Assembly (NCBI GenBank): GCA_016215445.1
Contig: JACRJL010000001.1
Location: 270,449-334,448, forward strand
Direction of reading: 5' to 3'
Length of the DNA: 64,000 bases
Source of the DNA: Candidatus Roizmanbacteria bacterium
GTDB taxonomy: Bacteria > Patescibacteriota > Microgenomatia > UBA1406 > GWC2-37-13
Shown: positions 44,535 through 50,742 of the stretch, piece by piece
How the letters are laid out: every line of letters begins with the position of its first letter
How positions within the stretch are numbered: the stretch's first letter is position 1
Program-made: the position numbers and the translations under genes
Notes under the pieces: generated by a model
What the model saw: only the letters and a program-made list of their open reading frames with translations
What the model was told of the DNA's origin: nothing
Database searches by the model: none

Positions 44535-46415
44535 TTATATTTTTTCAAGTTCTTTTTTGGCTTCTTCCTCGGTAATATTTCGGGAAGTTGAAGAATAATA
44601 AAAACGAAGGGTCAGTTTATTTTCATATAGAGTAACCACCTCGATTTTTTGCATAAGTTTAGATTGTTCGGCCAAGCTTCTTATGACCTCGTAGGTCATT
44701 TTTGGCCCCAGCTCAAATGTTTTATCAAGCTTAATGACGGCAAAAGGATTGATAGGCTGATATTTTGGAAATTGTTTATAGTTATCAATTAACTGTTGAA
44801 AATCAATTTCAGCCATGAAAACGTTGTTTTTTTCTGTTATTTTCGGTAAGGGCAATTTATTAATTGAGCCTACATTTAATTCCTTATAAACAGCTTCAAT
44901 GATTCCTTTAAGTTCAAAATAATCAGTGTTGACAGCAATCCCCAAATTATAGTTTTCTTGTGGTAGGTCGTTTTTCCTGGGAATATAAATTTTTGCGATT
45001 TCAAATAATCTTAACGTTTCTTTTTTCCCTGTGTTTTCCTTAATATTTTTGTATAGGGAAGGAAGAAGCGTCTTTCTCATATATTCTATTTCTTCGGAGA
45101 TTGTGTTTGACAGTCTCAAGTGATCTTTTATATTCAATGGCCAATCCTCTATCATCTTTTTGGATATCATAGAATAGTTGATAACTTCGTTTAAGCCAAG
45201 ATGTTTTAAAAATGTTTTTATTCTATTTTGAAAAACGAAAAGATTTTCCATTTCTTTGGGTTGTTCTACGTAAGCTGGTGGTTGAAGCAGGGATGGAATA
45301 TTGTGGTATCCGTAAATTCTGGCAACTTCCTCAACTAAATCTTCTTGGATTGTGATGTCATATTTTCGATGTGATGGCACAGCAACAAAGTATTTTTCCG
45401 CTTTTTTATCGACAGAAAATCCCAAATTTGTCAGAATTGTAATAATAGTTTTTGGATCGATTTTTATTCCAATTAACCTGTCGAATTTTTCCTGATTAAT
45501 TTCAATCACTTTACCTTGGTATTTTTCAGGATATATGTCTTGGATCTTGGAGACAATCTTTCCTTGGCAGTATTTTTCTATAAGTTCGGAAGCAGTAACG
45601 GTTGTTGCCTCAACTCTCTCTTCGTCAAGACCTTTTTCAAAAAATGTTGCGGCAATGGTCCTTTGTCCGGTCGTCATGGTTGTCTTTCGAATTTTGCTTT
45701 TGTTATAAGTCTGAACGAACAAAAGAACCCTTTTGGTTTTTGAAGTGATGGCCGAATTCAATCCGCCCATGATGCCGCAGAGGTCAATTAGTTTTCCCGA
45801 TCCGTCCTCTATCACGACATCTCCTCCCGGCAGCGTGATTTCCTTCTCATCCAGGGTTACGAGTTTTTCGCCTTTTTTGGACTCTCTGACAATCATTCGA
45901 TGATCTATGATCTTGTCATAATCGAACATATGTATTGGTTGGCCAAAGGTAAGCATCAAGTAGTTTGAAACGTCAACGACATTATTTATTATTTTAACTC
46001 CGGCTTTTGCAAGTCTATCTTTGATAAAATCCGGTGAATCTTTGATGACTATTTCATCATAAATTATTGCTGTAAATCTTGAGACTAGATCTGGGTTGCG
46101 GATTTCGACTTTGAGATCGTAGCCTTTTCCTTCTTTTATTTTACTGAATTTCAAATCTTTCAAAGGATTGGACTTTAATTTTGCTTTTTTACCGAACATT
46201 GGCAGTATGGCAACAGCTTCTTGGGCAATGCCGAGTACAGATGCATAATCAATCCTATTAGATATGATCTCGATGTCATATATATAATCGTTGCCAATCT
46301 TTTCGACAGATTCAATGGAGGGTCCGCAAAGAGATAGATATTCCCTGATTTCATCCGGATTTGCATTGGTTTCAAGATAATCAAGAAGCCAATTATGGGT
46401 AATTTTTATATTCAT
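44535..46415 (-). CDS. pheT: Phenylalanyl-tRNA synthetase beta subunit, EMAP-less
   Basis: 626 residues from the ATG just after the pheS stop ('MNIKITHNWLLDYLE'). An upstream in-frame start would overlap pheS by 62 bases. The usual tRNA-binding EMAP/OB domain (about residues 40-150 in other bacteria) is missing: the B1 start runs straight into 'YDIEIISNRIDYASVLGIAQE'. B3/4, B5 and the C-terminal FDX-ACB domain ('PFAVIKLDKTFEL...') are present. Confidence 0.93.
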   Translation of the reverse strand: MNIKITHNWLLDYLETNANPDEIREYLSLCGPSIESVEKIGNDYIYDIEIISNRIDYASVLGIAQEAVAILPMFGKKAKLKSNPLKDLKFSKIKEGKGYDLKVEIRNPDLVSRFTAIIYDEIVIKDSPDFIKDRLAKAGVKIINNVVDVSNYLMLTFGQPIHMFDYDKIIDHRMIVRESKKGEKLVTLDEKEITLPGGDVVIEDGSGKLIDLCGIMGGLNSAITSKTKRVLLFVQTYNKSKIRKTTMTTGQRTIAATFFEKGLDEERVEATTVTASELIEKYCQGKIVSKIQDIYPEKYQGKVIEINQEKFDRLIGIKIDPKTIITILTNLGFSVDKKAEKYFVAVPSHRKYDITIQEDLVEEVARIYGYHNIPSLLQPPAYVEQPKEMENLFVFQNRIKTFLKHLGLNEVINYSMISKKMIEDWPLNIKDHLRLSNTISEEIEYMRKTLLPSLYKNIKENTGKKETLRLFEIAKIYIPRKNDLPQENYNLGIAVNTDYFELKGIIEAVYKELNVGSINKLPLPKITEKNNVFMAEIDFQQLIDNYKQFPKYQPINPFAVIKLDKTFELGPKMTYEVIRSLAEQSKLMQKIEVVTLYENKLTLRFYYSSTSRNITEEEAKKELEKI

Positions 46416-46416
46416 A

Positions 46417-47454
46417 TTAAAATTGTTCCAAGAATCTGATATCTCCGCTGTAATAATTTCTAATATCATCGAGTCCATATTTCATCATAATGACTCTTTC
46501 GATTCCAAATCCAAATGCCCATCCAGAGAATTTTTTTGGATCTATACCTCCCTCAGTCAAAACATTAGGGTGGACCATACCTGTTCCGCCAAGTTCCAGC
46601 CAACCTGACTTGCAAACTTTACATTTATTTTCATTTACTTTTGAAGTTCCTTTGCAGACAGTACAAGTGACATCAACCTCAAAGGATGGTTCCGTAAACT
46701 GAAAATGATGAGGTCTTAATCTAGTTTTTGTTCCTTTACCAAAATATTTTTCGGCAAAATAATCAAGAGTACCTTTGAGATTAGTGATATTTATGTCGAG
46801 ATCAACGCAAAGACCCTCAAACTGGAAGAACATCGGAGTATGGGTTGCATCCCAATTTGGTCTATAACACTTCGAAATATTTATCATTCTAATAGGAGGT
46901 TTTCCGACACGTTTCATTTCCCGATTTTGGCCATTCGAAGTATGTGGGGTCAAAACCATTTTTCCAAATTTTAGATTTTCAGGGAAATCAATATATGATG
47001 TTTCAAAATCGTCTCGAGCAGGGTGACCTTTAGGCATGTTCAAAGCTTCAAAAGCGCTATATTCCCAGTCAACCTCAGGATAGGAAACGCGGATAAATCC
47101 GATTTTTTCAAAAATTTTTGTGATTTCTTCAATAGCGAAAGAAACAATGTGAAGGCTACCTATTGGGAAAGTTTTTCCTGGAAGAGTCGAGTCAAAGAAC
47201 TTGTCTGATTTTTTTTCTGATAGTTCTTTTCTTTTTACTTCGATTAATCGAAGAAACGAATTTTTTAATTCGTTTACTTTTTTACCGTATTCTTTTTTTT
47301 CTTCTGTTGGGATGTCATTAATTTTTTTCAGAAAGTCATTTATGATTCCGTTTCTTCCCAAATATTTAATCTGTAGATTAGTCAATTCATCATTGTTGGA
47401 AATATTCTTGAGCTCGTTGTGAAATTCTTTATTTGTATCGTCCAAATTGACCAT
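46417..47454 (-). CDS. pheS: Phenylalanyl-tRNA synthetase alpha subunit
   Basis: 345 residues: N-terminal coiled coil (about 1-90) and class II core with 'LTPHTSNGQNREM', 'YRPNWDATHTPMFFQFEGL' and 'GWAFGFGIERVIMMKYG'. A four-Cys knuckle-like insert (CTVCKG...CKVCKS, about 262-280) is present. Contains near its 5' end the 16-bp palindrome also found around the TrpR-like gene. Confidence 0.95.
   Translation of the reverse strand: MVNLDDTNKEFHNELKNISNNDELTNLQIKYLGRNGIINDFLKKINDIPTEEKKEYGKKVNELKNSFLRLIEVKRKELSEKKSDKFFDSTLPGKTFPIGSLHIVSFAIEEITKIFEKIGFIRVSYPEVDWEYSAFEALNMPKGHPARDDFETSYIDFPENLKFGKMVLTPHTSNGQNREMKRVGKPPIRMINISKCYRPNWDATHTPMFFQFEGLCVDLDINITNLKGTLDYFAEKYFGKGTKTRLRPHHFQFTEPSFEVDVTCTVCKGTSKVNENKCKVCKSGWLELGGTGMVHPNVLTEGGIDPKKFSGWAFGFGIERVIMMKYGLDDIRNYYSGDIRFLEQF
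47238..47253. repeat. CTTCGATTAATCGAAG palindrome inside pheS
   Basis: Perfect 16-bp palindrome identical to the core of the intergenic palindromes at 61112-61131 and 61680-61697. It lies about 200 bases into the pheS coding sequence. Coincidence is possible but an exact 16-mer match is unlikely in 64 kb. Confidence 0.6.
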
Positions 47455-47475
47455 GAAGAAAATTATAGCAGAAGT

Positions 47476-47820
47476 TTATTTTACTTTCTCGACCACTTTT
47501 GCAAAGACTTGAGGATGTTCGCCGGCCAATTTAGCCAGAATTTTTCTGTCTAATTCAATTTTTTTCGCTGCTAATTTTTGGATAAACTGACTGTAAGTCA
47601 AACCCAAAGGGCGAACCGCCGCATTGAGTCTAATTATCCAAAGTTTCCTGAACTCTCTTTTTTTTTGTTTTCGACCGGTAAAAGCGTATTCTCCGGCATG
47701 GAGGACAGCTTCCTTTGCTTTCTGAAACTGTTTGTGCCTTGTCATCCAGTAACCCTTGGCAAGTTTAAGAACTTTTTTATGTTTCCTTTTGCTTTGAATT
47801 CCTGATTTAACACGAACCAT
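47476..47820 (-). CDS. rplT: Large ribosomal subunit protein bL20
   Basis: 114 residues, very basic N-terminus ('[13 protein letters not shown]') and the typical core '[21 protein letters not shown]'. Position between rpmI and pheS is the classical infC-rpmI-rplT-pheST order. Confidence 0.97.
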
Positions 47821-47821
47821 A

Positions 47822-48025
47822 TCATTTTTTGCCCAACATTTTTAACAATTTTCTCTTATAAGATCCACTCACTGTATTCATTTTTTTCATGCGCCTTAAC
47901 CATTTTTTATTCTTTTTAGATTTTAAGTGGCGAAAACCCTTAGATCTATGAAGGACTTTTCCTTTTGCGGAAACTCTAAATCTTTTGACGGCGGATTTCC
48001 TAGTTTTTTGTTTATTTTTAGTCAT
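47822..48025 (-). CDS. rpmI: Large ribosomal subunit protein bL35
   Basis: 67 residues with '[25 protein letters not shown]', the bL35 signature. One base before rplT. Confidence 0.95.
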
Positions 48026-48049
48026 AGTGAAGTTTCTATTATAACTTTG

Positions 48050-48586
48050 TTACTTCTTTTTTGCAACCACACTTCGGATCACTCTACCTTCAAACTTGGG
48101 AGGTTTGGAAACATTTACGTCGCCAAGAGCAGCTATATATTTATTTACTAAATCAAAGGCCATCTGCCTTTTACCCATTTCTCTACCCCTTAAAGTTAGA
48201 TTGATTCTGACCTGATGTCCATCGGCCAAAAATTCCTTGCCTTTGTTTTCCAATCTTGTCAAGTCGCCTTCAGCGATAAATAAACCAAGGCTGACATCTT
48301 TTGTCGTACTTTTCTTAATGCCTTTTTTCGCCTCTTTGGCTTTTTTCTCCTCCTGGTAGAGAAATTTTTTAAAGTCAATAATCTTTGCCACTGGAGGTTG
48401 AGCTTTTGGAGCGATTAAAACCAAATCTAATTCGGCTTCTTGAGCTTTTCTTAAAGCTTCTTCTTTAGTGATGACTCCTATTTGTTCTCCTTTTTCATTT
48501 ATAACCCTCAAGGTCGGAGCCTCAATCCTGAAATTGATGAAATAATACTTTCGTGGTTGATACCTTGGTCTATGAAAAGTTCTCAA
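48050..48586 (-). CDS. infC: Translation initiation factor IF-3
   Basis: 178 residues: N-domain 'NFRIEAPTLRVINEKGEQIGVITKEEAL', lysine-rich linker, and C-domain ending 'FEGRVIRSVVAKKK'. The start is TTG at 48586, overlapping thrS by 17 bases; infC commonly uses a non-ATG start, so this is kept. IF-3 controls start-codon selection, of interest where leaderless mRNAs seem common. Confidence 0.94.
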   Translation of the reverse strand: MRTFHRPRYQPRKYYFINFRIEAPTLRVINEKGEQIGVITKEEALRKAQEAELDLVLIAPKAQPPVAKIIDFKKFLYQEEKKAKEAKKGIKKSTTKDVSLGLFIAEGDLTRLENKGKEFLADGHQVRINLTLRGREMGKRQMAFDLVNKYIAALGDVNVSKPPKFEGRVIRSVVAKKK

Positions 48587-50321
48587 TTTGAGATTTTAGA
48601 TTTGAAACAAAATCGGAAATTGTAATTTGGCCTAAATCTTTACCTTCGCGGGTTCGGACAGAACATTTTCCAGTTCCCGCCTCTTTCTCTCCAATTATAA
48701 TCATATAGGGAATTTTTTGCAACGTTGTTTCCCTGATTTTTGCTCCAAGTGTTTTACTGTCATTATTGAGCTCGACACGGATTAACTCCTTTTTCAACTC
48801 TTCTTTAATTTTTAAGGCATAATCCTGAAATTTGTCTGAAATTGGTAAAATGGCGACCTGAACCGGTGCAAGCCATAGAGGAAAAGCTCCAGCGTAATGT
48901 TCGATCAAGAACGCAATTGTTCTTTCAAATGCGCCAAGAGAAGCACGATGAATTACGACAGGCTCTTCCTCTTGTCCTTCCTTGTTGATAAATCTGAGAT
49001 TGAATCTTTTTGGCATGACAAAGTCATACTGAACTGTAAAGGCCGTATCTTCCTTACCGTTGACGTTTTTCATTTGCACGTCTATTTTCGGGCCGTAAAA
49101 AGCCGCCTCGTTTTCAGCCTCAAAATAAGGAACTTTTTGATTTTTAAGGACGTCTCTAAGGATATTTTCGGCGAAGTTCCACATTTCATCATCTTTATAA
49201 TATTTTTTTGAATCTCCCCTTACTCCAAGGGAAAGTCTGTACCTATAATCTATTCCAGCCTTGAGTCCCAGAGCTTTATTGATGAAATCAATCAGATCCA
49301 AAACGCCTACTATTTCTTCTTTTGCCTGATTTTTTGGTGTTATTATATGGGCATCAGAGAGTAAAAATGTTCTTACTCTCATTAGCCCTGTTAATTCACC
49401 ACTTTTCTCATAACGGAATTGAGGTGAAATTTCAGCATAGCGGATCGGCATTTCGTGATAGGAATGGGGTCGAATTTTAAAAAGAGCGAAGTGGTGAGGA
49501 CAGGTCATTGGTCGTAGTATTAATTCCTCTTCATCCACGATCATTGGTGGGTACATCGTTTCCTTATAGTATGGATAATGTCCCGAAGTCCTGTAAAGAT
49601 CGACTTTAGCAATTGGCGGCGTGGAGACGTGTTGATAGCCTCGCTTTATCTCTTCATCAACGATAAATCTTTCCAATATTCTTTTTATAGTGGCTCCCTT
49701 GGGCATAAGTAAAGGTAAACCTTTCCCGACCAGATCGGAAAAAGCGAATAGATCCAAATCTTGGCCTAGTTTTCTATGATCTCTTTTTTTGGCTTCTTCG
49801 ATCATTTTTAAATGATTTTCCAATTCATCTTTTGTCGGGAAGACAGTGCCATAGATTCTTGTCAACATTTTGTTCTTTTCATCGCCTCGCCAATAGGCTC
49901 CGGCAACAGAAAGAAGTTTGAAATGGCGTAACTCTTTGGAAGGATTTTCTACATGACCCATCTTACAAAGGTCAAGGAAGTCTCCTGGATCGTTTGTTTG
50001 GAGTTTCTTTCCTTGCTTCGCAAATTCTGTCGCCATCTCTATTTTATATTTATTATCTTTGAATAACTTTTTCGCTTCGGGAAGGGTTACTTCTTTGAAT
50101 GAAAATCCTTTCCAAGTAGGAAGTATCTCTTTCATTTTAGCTTCGATTTTGGGAAAATCTTCTTCCGAAATATTCCATTTCCCCATATCAAAGTCCTGAT
50201 AGAATCCGTTTTCTATGGCAGGTCCAATGGCATTCAAAGCACCAGGATAAAGTTGTTTTACAGCGTGAGCTAGCAAATGAGCGCACGAATGTCTGAGATT
50301 GTCTAAATTTTGTTTGTCCAT
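48570..50321 (-). CDS. thrS: Threonyl-tRNA synthetase lacking the TGS domain
   Basis: 583 residues; begins directly with the editing-domain region ('NLRHSCAHLLAHAVKQLYPGA', HxxxH zinc/editing motif) and lacks the N-terminal TGS domain of E. coli ThrRS (642). The catalytic core has motif 2 'RYEKSGELTGLMRVRTF' and the anticodon-binding domain is at the C-terminus. Preceded by a Thr-codon leader peptide and terminator. A TAGAAT 7 bases before the ATG could be a second, attenuator-independent leaderless promoter. Confidence 0.96.
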   Translation of the reverse strand: MDKQNLDNLRHSCAHLLAHAVKQLYPGALNAIGPAIENGFYQDFDMGKWNISEEDFPKIEAKMKEILPTWKGFSFKEVTLPEAKKLFKDNKYKIEMATEFAKQGKKLQTNDPGDFLDLCKMGHVENPSKELRHFKLLSVAGAYWRGDEKNKMLTRIYGTVFPTKDELENHLKMIEEAKKRDHRKLGQDLDLFAFSDLVGKGLPLLMPKGATIKRILERFIVDEEIKRGYQHVSTPPIAKVDLYRTSGHYPYYKETMYPPMIVDEEELILRPMTCPHHFALFKIRPHSYHEMPIRYAEISPQFRYEKSGELTGLMRVRTFLLSDAHIITPKNQAKEEIVGVLDLIDFINKALGLKAGIDYRYRLSLGVRGDSKKYYKDDEMWNFAENILRDVLKNQKVPYFEAENEAAFYGPKIDVQMKNVNGKEDTAFTVQYDFVMPKRFNLRFINKEGQEEEPVVIHRASLGAFERTIAFLIEHYAGAFPLWLAPVQVAILPISDKFQDYALKIKEELKKELIRVELNNDSKTLGAKIRETTLQKIPYMIIIGEKEAGTGKCSVRTREGKDLGQITISDFVSNLKSQIENFS

Positions 50322-50328
50322 AATTTTA

Positions 50329-50334
50329 ATTCTA
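50329..50334 (-). promoter_or_regulatory. Possible internal -10 for thrS
   Basis: TAGAAT on the minus strand, 7 bases before the thrS ATG and downstream of the attenuator. It would allow unattenuated expression; it may instead be incidental AT-rich sequence. Confidence 0.3.
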
Positions 50335-50357
50335 AACTATTAAATAGATTGTAGCAT

Positions 50358-50408
50358 AAAAAAACCCTCCTCTTGGGAGGGATAATCTATGCTACAGGAC
50401 TACCCCTC
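50358..50408 (-). terminator. Threonine attenuator: competing hairpins and terminator
   Basis: RNA regions in order on the minus strand. Region 1: ACTACC within the Thr codons (50419-50424). Region 2: GGTAGT/GAGGGG (50399-50408). Region 3: CCCTCC (50376-50381). Region 4: GGAGGG (50365-50370) plus seven U (50358-50364). 1:2 pairs over 6 bp, 2:3 over 7 bp with one G-U, 3:4 over 6 bp with a 5-base loop. 3:4 plus the U-run is an intrinsic terminator and 2:3 excludes it. TGTAGCAT (50389-50396) and ATGCTACA (50350-50357) can also pair around the terminator. Confidence 0.85.
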
Positions 50409-50409
50409 A

Positions 50410-50451
50410 CTAAGAGATGGTAGTTGTAGTAAATTTAATTTCTTTTTTCAT
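50410..50451 (-). CDS. Threonine leader peptide (13 aa)
   Basis: ATG to TAG, encoding MKKEIKFTTTTIS: four consecutive Thr codons (ACT ACA ACT ACC) followed by Ile and Ser. TATAAT ends 6 bases before the ATG, so the leader peptide itself is predicted to be translated from a leaderless start. The ribosome stopping at the TAG would cover region 2 and let the terminator form; stalling on the Thr codons would free region 2 to form the antiterminator. Analogous in logic to E. coli thrL, but controlling a synthetase operon. Confidence 0.85.
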   Translation of the reverse strand: MKKEIKFTTTTIS

Positions 50452-50457
50452 ATTATT

Positions 50458-50485
50458 ATTATACTTCTATTTTTCGTCTTGTCAA
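50458..50485 (-). promoter_or_regulatory. Promoter of the thr leader/thrS operon (TTGACA-16-TATAAT)
   Basis: Minus strand consensus -35 TTGACA (50480-50485), 16-bp spacer, consensus -10 TATAAT (50458-50463), then 6 bases to the leader-peptide ATG. It begins 4 bases past the tRNA-Val 3' end. Confidence 0.85.
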
Positions 50486-50489
50486 ATAG

Positions 50490-50563
50490 TGGTCGCGACA
50501 GGACTTGAACCTGTGACCTTTTCAATGTCAATGAAACGCTCTAGCCAACTGAGCTACGCGACC
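50490..50563 (-). tRNA. tRNA-Val (GAC)
   Basis: 74-nt cloverleaf, acceptor GGTCGCG/CGCGACC; anticodon stem TTTCA/TGAAA, loop TTGACAT gives GAC. No CCA encoded. Upstream TAGAAT on the same strand is a possible -10. Confidence 0.94.
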
Positions 50564-50657
50564 TACCTTTACAATTCTACCAAAAATTTCAATTTTTTGA
50601 TCAATAAATTAGCCTCGAATTGTAGGTTTTTTAATATAGGACTATTTATGTAGTTGC

Positions 50658-50686
50658 TTGACATACCTATAGTTTTATGCTATAAT
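50658..50686 (+). promoter_or_regulatory. Full consensus promoter (TTGACA-17-TATAAT)
   Basis: -35 TTGACA (50658-50663), 17-bp spacer, extended -10 TGCTATAAT ending at 50686. The strongest promoter seen in the window; start near 50693. Confidence 0.88.
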
Positions 50687-50694
50687 ACTGTCAG

Positions 50695-50742
50695 ATCCTA
50701 AGGTTTTTCAGATTTTTCTTGAAAAGCTTTAGGATTTTTTTT
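50695..50742 (+). terminator. Terminator-like hairpin between promoter and ORF
   Basis: 16-bp stem (arms 50695-50710 and 50720-50735, two G-U pairs), 9-base loop, then a run of U to 50742; the ATG starts at 50743. It has the form of an intrinsic terminator at the very 5' end of the transcript, leaving about 50 nt of RNA if used. Either an attenuator, a separate small RNA, or a 5' stabilising stem that also hides the start codon. Confidence 0.75.

Follow-up and report, generated by a model that had tools for sequence, protein, structure and literature searches.

A candidate threonine leader-peptide attenuator, probably read from a leaderless message, upstream of thrS in a Candidatus Roizmanbacteria genome

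Almost no member of the Candidate Phyla Radiation can be cultivated, so that little is known of how their genes are regulated. Elsewhere the classical amino-acid leader-peptide attenuators are thrL, hisL, trpL and pheL of E. coli, and the pheM leader attenuates E. coli pheST. Described controls of thrS are a translational operator bound by ThrRS in E. coli and, in Firmicutes, a T-box that responds to uncharged tRNA-Thr. Leaderless attenuators with polycysteine runs have been described in mycobacteria (Canestrari et al. 2020, cited in PMC9094748), with leaderless candidates also given in the consulted parts of PMC4633059, and the consulted parts of PMC1262725 give no conserved terminator hairpins for mycobacterial cys leaders. 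Leader peptides have been predicted before hisS paralogues in bacilli (His codons; PMC2965389, consulted in part) and before trpS and leuS in Streptomyces, i.e. Actinobacteria (PMC1262725). The authors of PMC2965389 knew of no such case outside Proteobacteria and Actinobacteria before their own from Firmicutes hisS, and the text of that paper does not mention thrS. Among the open-licence papers found on ThrRS and leaders it is, by title, the only one to treat attenuation of synthetase genes, and no report of such attenuation in Patescibacteria, the Candidate Phyla Radiation or Microgenomates was found in the open-licence literature.

The present study analyses the DNA upstream of thrS in one window, meaning the whole 64,000-nucleotide stretch examined, in which all elements of the leader lie on the minus strand. 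A tRNA-Val gene (GAC; 50489..50563) is directly 5′ of the leader promoter P1, whose -35 hexamer TTGACA (50480..50485) and -10 hexamer TATAAT (50458..50463) match all 12 of 12 promoter positions with a 16-nt spacer. The -10 hexamer lies 6 nt 5′ of the leader ATG, a placement that recurs in relatives. The leader ORF (50410..50451; 13 codons, MKKEIKFTTTTIS), probably leaderless, runs from the ATG at 50451 to a TAG stop at 50412-50410 and contains four consecutive Thr codons, ACT ACA ACT ACC (50419..50430), the Thr residue being specific across relatives. Region 1 (ACTACC-A-TCTC, 50414..50424) overlaps these codons; region 2 (GAGGGGTAGT, 50399..50408) can pair with region 1 or with region 3 (TTATCCCTCC, 50376..50385), and region 3 makes an antiterminator with region 2 or a terminator with region 4 (GGAGGG, 50365..50370, the 3′ arm of the terminator stem), which is followed by the seven T of an intrinsic terminator (50358..50364). 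A further stem flanks the terminator, with its 5′ arm (TGTAGCATA, 50388..50396) inside the 2:3 loop and its 3′ arm (TATGCTACA, 50350..50358) present solely in read-through RNA. Next come a -10-like TAGAAT (50329..50334), possibly a basal leaderless promoter (P2), 7 nt 5′ of the thrS ATG, then thrS (48570..50321; PF00587, PF03129, PF07973), the first downstream gene, and, in line 3′ of it, infC, rpmI, rplT, pheS and pheT (44535..48586). The promoter, the 13-codon ORF with its adjacent Thr codons, the gap of 6 between -10 and ATG and the co-strand gene order had all been described in a sequence-only reading of this DNA, and each is as described; its placing of the stop codon 10 bases before region 2 has to be corrected, as the stop ends 1 nt 5′ of that region. 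On the plus strand, positions 50658-50737 hold a divergent promoter, also matching 12 of 12 positions, followed immediately by a terminator-like hairpin and T-tract before a plus-strand ORF.

We interpret the thrS leader, with a probability of about 0.87 judged from sequence, as an attenuator by which the ribosome senses threonine for the thrS-infC-rpmI-rplT-pheS-pheT transcript. With the classical attenuators it shares a leader ORF rich in cognate codons, alternative 1:2, 2:3 and 3:4 pairings and an intrinsic terminator before the target genes; it differs from them in that it would target thrS, where theirs are biosynthesis operons, and in that the leader is apparently leaderless without a Shine-Dalgarno (SD) sequence, region 1 lies over the Thr codons and there is an extra flanking stem. 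Like pheM it would be leader-peptide attenuation of an aminoacyl-tRNA synthetase operon, but for another amino acid, and here pheST is co-directional and downstream of thrS. The mycobacterial polycysteine attenuators resemble it in having a short leaderless ORF with a run of cognate codons and a related gene behind, but are actinobacterial and concern cysteine, while the bacilli hisS and Streptomyces trpS and leuS leaders, likewise predicted peptides before a synthetase gene, belong to other phyla and other amino acids. The E. coli operator and the Firmicutes T-box also respond at thrS to threonine or to the state of ThrRS, but without a Thr leader read by a ribosome. Rfam leader families gave no match above cut-off in the window (the best was Phe_leader, 19.2 bits against a cut-off of 55) and Thr_leader was not among the matches. 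Leader-peptide attenuation itself is known; what appears to be new is a Thr attenuator of thrS that is leaderless, has a flanking stem and belongs to a phylum for which no earlier report was found, which agrees with the earlier impression that a Thr-codon attenuator before thrS looks new in a genome of this kind.

In the mechanism we propose, RNA polymerase would start at, or a few bases from, the leader ATG, and a ribosome would load on the leaderless message. A shortage of charged tRNA-Thr would halt this ribosome at the Thr codons, where it would sit on region 1 and leave region 2 to pair with region 3 (GAGGGGTAG with TTATCCCTC), so that 3:4 would be blocked and transcription would continue into thrS and the genes behind it. 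With ample Thr-tRNA the ribosome would move on to the stop codon, which ends 1 nt 5′ of region 2, and would occlude that region, so that 3:4 would form and terminate transcription. In the absence of translation 1:2 would form, likewise freeing region 3 for region 4. In read-through RNA the segment just past the U-tract would pair with the 2:3 loop and may lock the open state, and P2 at the thrS ATG would supply a basal leaderless thrS message outside the switch.

Folding of the leader RNA is consistent with these alternatives. Between the start of the leader ORF and thrS there are 133 nt, whose fold, at -38.9 kcal/mol (z -4.8), none of 200 shuffles equalled. Region 1 pairs with region 2 (ACTACC.TCTC with GAGGGGTAGT) in 6+4 bp, region 2 with region 3 in 9 bp ungapped (p=0.010) or 11 bp in a ribosome-masked fold, and region 3 with region 4 as CCCTCC/GGAGGG before the seven T. 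With the RNA masked as far as 10 nt beyond the codon in the A site, an assumed footprint, 2:3 formed when that codon was Thr1 or Thr4 and 3:4 formed when it was the stop codon. The three pairings proposed in the sequence-only reading thus exist, with 1:2 and 2:3 longer than the 6 and 7 bp given, and its regions 1-4 stand, although it overlooked the fifth element, the pairing of TGTAGCATA with TATGCTACA around the terminator. As a single ungapped helix 1:2 was no better than shuffles in the window (p=0.13) and beat them (p<0.05) in just 6 of 30 leaders, while 2:3 did so in 22 of 30.

Covariation was assessed by an alignment-free swap test, in which the duplex energy of each region with the partner from its own species is compared with that with partners from other species, across 28 leaders; L018 and L053 (ORF overruns region 2) and L012 and L125 (no terminator found by script) were dropped. 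The own partner was better for 1:2 (z -4.7), 2:3 (z -7.1) and 3:4 (z -7.1), each with none of 2000 permutations as extreme, and for the flanking stem (z -6.0, 0/2000). Control pairs gave z -0.2 (1:3), -1.5 (2:4) and -2.3 (1:4, 23/2000), the last because regions 2 and 4 are alike. Removal of five close relatives, leaving 23 leaders, changed the values to -4.0, -6.6 and -7.1. Regions 1-4 change jointly, reading CUCC/GGAGGG/CCCUCC/GGAGGG in many leaders, CCGC/GCGGGG/CCCCGC/GCGGGG in L016 and L017, and CCACG/GCGUGG/CCACGC/GCGUGG in L121. RNAalifold returned no consensus pairs from the 28-leader MAFFT alignment, a result ascribed to register shifts, and for this reason the swap tests were used together with pair counts for the named structures. 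In the latter, paired cells and covariation score exceeded all 500 shuffles, and all slid registers, for both 1:2+3:4 and 2:3, with some bias in favour of the structure since it was drawn from one member. Other counts were less decisive: the number of pair types was weakly above chance (21 and 24 of 500 shuffles as high), 58 of 500 shuffles had as many 2:3 pairs changed on both sides, and a slide of -1 equalled or exceeded the 1:2+3:4 structure on pair types and on pairs changed on both sides. Covariation of all three pairings across species, proposed earlier as a check, was therefore found by swap test and pair counts. The antiterminator 2:3 and the terminator 3:4 are mutually exclusive, an ORF with a cognate-codon run and an intrinsic terminator precede the first structural gene, and a protector pairing 1:2 over the control codons is detected by swap test and pair counts and weakly by single-helix shuffles.

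Relatives were compared through thrS, which is present in 69 of 72 genomes of the family; the closest among named records is that of a Candidatus Roizmanbacteria MAG (LBST01000010.1, 85% identity). Upstream DNA was taken from 67 family loci, of which 64 were usable (at least 60 nt), and by curation 30 of the 64 have a Thr leader (29 of them curated directly and the thirtieth, L119, identical to L081). Three further leaders from records outside this set bring the curated total to 32. Examples are MKNNIVITTTTDSC, MNKYILINTTTTFSC, MFNLRLVNTTTTTFL and MMSPRNITTTTTT. Curation was by eye, both in the choice of ATG and in the inclusion of L007, L120, L125 and L132, which have fewer than three Thr in five codons; the remaining 28 of 32 have at least three. 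The Thr share of 134/469 in curated leaders is inflated by selection, and an unselected test is given by an automatic scan for an ATG ORF followed 5-90 nt downstream by a terminator in 60 upstreams (the 64 minus four filed under an identical named record). At least four Thr in six codons together with a terminator occurred in 18 of the 60, while any other amino acid at that density occurred in none, and 20 rounds of dinucleotide shuffles gave none. At three or more of six codons the scan found Thr 24 times, Ile three times and K, R, N and G once each. Thr codons in the curated leaders were ACT 53, ACC 50, ACA 29 and ACG 2, i.e. the third base varies while the Thr residue is kept. A script detected the terminator stem and its U-tract in 30 of the 32, and each of the 28 swap-test leaders has its stop codon 0-5 nt 5′ of region 2. 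Relatives that bear a leader, whose thrS are 45-85% identical, have thus kept the Thr-codon leader, the stop beside region 2 and the terminator.

The comparison with related genomes, also proposed in the earlier reading, supports its interpretation, though by curation a Thr leader is present in 30 of 64 family upstreams and absent from the other 34, including three from the same genus (L010, L011, L014) whose thrS are 63-86% identical. In L010 the terminator and the segment past the U-tract are kept before thrS and the leader ORF is missing, so that the locus looks like a decayed attenuator. Other thrS leaders were seen as well. Thr-rich leaders, e.g. STLFTTPRG, precede thrS in L058, L069, L070 and L071 (WWE3 and Dojkabacteria) with no classical terminator by script, and a downstream segment in common suggests another read-out. 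In L033, L035, L038 and L045 a different conserved leader, CAACCTCAAAGAGAAGCG, with TGGAACC in three of the four and no thrS-proximal Rfam match in any, is perhaps a reduced T-box.

Translation of the leader without an untranslated 5′ region is likely from the position of its promoter and the rarity of SD sequences. In 21 of 32 leaders the ATG has a -10 hexamer (at least 4/6, with a -35 of at least 3/6) 4-9 nt 5′ of it, against a mean of 3.5 and a maximum of 11 in 200 shuffles, and only 2 of 32 have an SD of at least 4 nt before the ORF; the earlier suggestion that the peptide is read without a leader thus has statistical support. Among window ORFs of at least 120 aa, 28 of 59 have a -10 (at least 5/6) at leaderless spacing (9.4 in shuffled sequence) and SD motifs are at chance (3 versus 2.6), though the 16S rRNA 3′ end retains CCTCC. 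No promoter separates the end of tRNA-Val from the leader ATG in L022 and L024, where the two abut and tRNA processing could release a leaderless end. The thrS ATG, too, has a -10-like box (at least 5/6) 4-9 nt 5′ of it in 22 of 32 loci with a leader (shuffled 6.6) and in 17 of 29 other family members (shuffled 6.1), the latter being the loci of the 60-upstream set without a curated leader, minus two in which no thrS N-terminus was found. This box is probably a basal leaderless promoter, P2, independent of the switch, from which thrS may be transcribed bypassing the attenuator. The attenuator may then tune rather than gate thrS, controlling part of its transcription, which limits the earlier claim that the whole operon depends on it. 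No SD precedes thrS in 31 of 32 leader loci, a point against the attenuator as regards translation of the long read-through RNA.

The frequency of P2-like boxes before thrS also bears on whether the switch is needed at all, since thrS might be expressed solely from a leaderless P2, with the terminator serving the tRNA-Val transcript and the Thr ORF a by-product. A tRNA-Val directly upstream is shared by the window and eight further loci with a leader, among 11 scanned that had been picked for a visible tRNA, and in two of the 11 (L020, L025) the tRNA is present and the leader absent. We consider this explanation improbable, because the window leader has its own 12/12 promoter past tRNA-Val, leader loci L016 and L124 have no tRNA at all in the DNA scanned with Rfam, Thr runs recur where no other amino acid reaches four of six codons, and regions 2 and 3 co-vary, something that a simple terminator would not require. 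Slightly less probable again is translational attenuation, where stalling would alter RNA stability or how accessible the thrS start is, and the hairpin with its U-tract would be a processing signal. Here the co-variation of 3:4 and the terminators, stem plus U-tract, of 30 of 32 curated leaders argue for termination, and 31 of 32 thrS have no SD to hide, although the co-varying flanking stem does lie partly downstream of the terminator and the WWE3 and Dojkabacteria leaders (L058, L069-L071) are rich in Thr without an intrinsic terminator found by script.

That threonine is sensed by a protein or a tRNA, through a T-box or an operator of the E. coli thrS type, with the ORF incidental, seems very unlikely. 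It would leave aside the in-frame Thr codons with varied third bases and the stop 0-5 nt before region 2 in 28 swap-test leaders, and no T-box (RF00230) was matched in the window at gathering score or in 50200-50700 at E≤5; T-box-like leaders do occur at some other thrS, with 39.7 bits in L052 and 35.7 bits in L094 (Rfam cut-off 93). T-box calls made by motif pattern were discarded as unreliable: Rfam at gathering score gave none in 11 T-box-like or other thrS-leader loci, and with an E-value threshold, in eight loci, it gave partial matches below cut-off in L052, L094 and L095 alone.

Thr leaders of the attenuator type extend beyond the family of the window. A covariance model (R1) built from 28 leaders had matches at E≤0.01 in at least 76 of 281 class genomes, and at E≤1e-4 there were at least 34 matches, 13 of them the model's own source leaders; counts in these 281 genomes, and in the 379 phylum genomes below, are lower bounds (stricter filters above 40 genomes). 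Among the matches listed at E≤1e-4, 17 of 21 new ones precede thrS, by up to about 340 nt, and fall in seven families other than that of the window. thrS was called by coordinates in at least eight of the 17, by NCBIfam in two (L167 above cut-off, L171 below) and by reading the translated N-terminus in seven. Of the remaining four, those in G026 and G126 precede an epimerase gene and one in G017 a DAHP synthase-like gene, while for the one in G294 no family was found. Of the 379 phylum genomes at least 13 match at E≤0.001, including six from outside the class; in two of these six (L327, L331) Thr runs precede an ORF that reads as thrS-like.

Weaker matches to R1 include leaders with runs of other codons, which were read individually as sequence only, the covariation tests having covered Thr leaders. 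In the same genome as the window a MKITNSKDIVHHHLPNGG leader with terminator (L178; G000:C2:258800-261000, match 260725-260809) precedes hisS (TIGR00442, 356 bits, above cut-off), and similar leaders precede hisS in L184, L298 and L299. As hisS is present in 68 of 72 genomes and such leaders were found in 3 of 30 hisS loci read, plus L184, they are lineage-specific. Other matches to R1 in this genome have no clear cognate gene (L179, without a leader ORF, L180 and L181). A Cys leader, MKTILSLCCCAPSF, precedes a PF01053 gene in L187 that is closest to cystathionine gamma-synthase, below the NCBIfam cut-off. Tyr-rich leaders in L186 and L189 (tandem in L189) precede a 354-355 aa ORF without Pfam or NCBIfam family and with tyrS directly behind. 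Phe/Tyr leaders with terminators were found before DAHP synthase (L182, L337, L341), prephenate dehydratase (L336), prephenate dehydrogenase (L344) and pheS (L345, 385 nt further); L337, L341 and L345 pass NCBIfam cut-offs and the others were assigned by Pfam domains. Phe leaders (FFFF, FFFCFF) also occur downstream of thrS at L038:5941 and L045:5897. The Rfam Phe_leader model had matches at E≤0.01 in at least 103 of 187 class genomes, none above cut-off among the matches listed, and of 12 such loci read some have no Phe run.

The epimerase gene already mentioned has a TTTT leader in L348 (G026:C11:7700-10500) and L349 (G126:C12:6300-10300) and is of NAD-epimerase fold, accompanied by a Kbl-like acyltransferase gene and, in G026, by thrS directly behind the pair. 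Both genes score below NCBIfam cut-offs and their substrates are thus putative; the leader suggests that the pair is Thr-controlled and perhaps run towards threonine. Further leaders were noted before less usual genes, i.e. MDFKLYNFITDILHHHPLVAG in L190 before a protein that joins an acetyltransferase domain to a first part like histidine racemases (NCBIfam E 1e-20, below cut-off), and Tyr runs in L330 and L335, outside the class, before Pfam GCS2 (glutamate-cysteine ligase family 2, above cut-off). Pfam and NCBIfam gave no family for ORFs behind leaders L159, L185, L186, L188, L189 and L197, and NCBIfam, tried alone, none for those behind L181, L191, L194 and L196. The idea of a leader at every synthetase gene was rejected, as no leader with terminator was found at V, I, L, M, P, S, G, W and Y synthetase loci in ten family genomes, in a survey that leaves out L261, L262, L264, L268, L271, L272, L279-L281 and L287 (wrong ORF, neighbour or short upstream) and L204 and L240 (start uncertain).

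Taken with the Thr leaders, these sequences lead us to think it somewhat better than an even chance that Microgenomates have a class-wide network of ribosome-read, often leaderless attenuators with one code word per amino acid. The targets would be thrS and the epimerase/Kbl-like genes for Thr, hisS for His, DAHP synthase and the tyrS operon for Tyr/Phe (some in tandem), pheS for Phe and the cystathionine-synthase-like gene for Cys. The epimerase/Kbl pair is known for threonine breakdown, and if the network is true a Thr leader would mean that the pair is run in reverse, making threonine; more generally, the codon run would show which amino acid a gene of unknown function serves.

A leader-peptide attenuator is among the few regulatory mechanisms that can be read from sequence together with the signal. 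If the thrS attenuator is real, these small genomes sense amino-acid supply through ribosome stalling, which is relevant in cells thought to depend on the amino acids of others. It would extend a textbook mechanism to a major bacterial branch and to leaderless messages, and would give a route by which an amino acid may be assigned to unknown genes behind such leaders.
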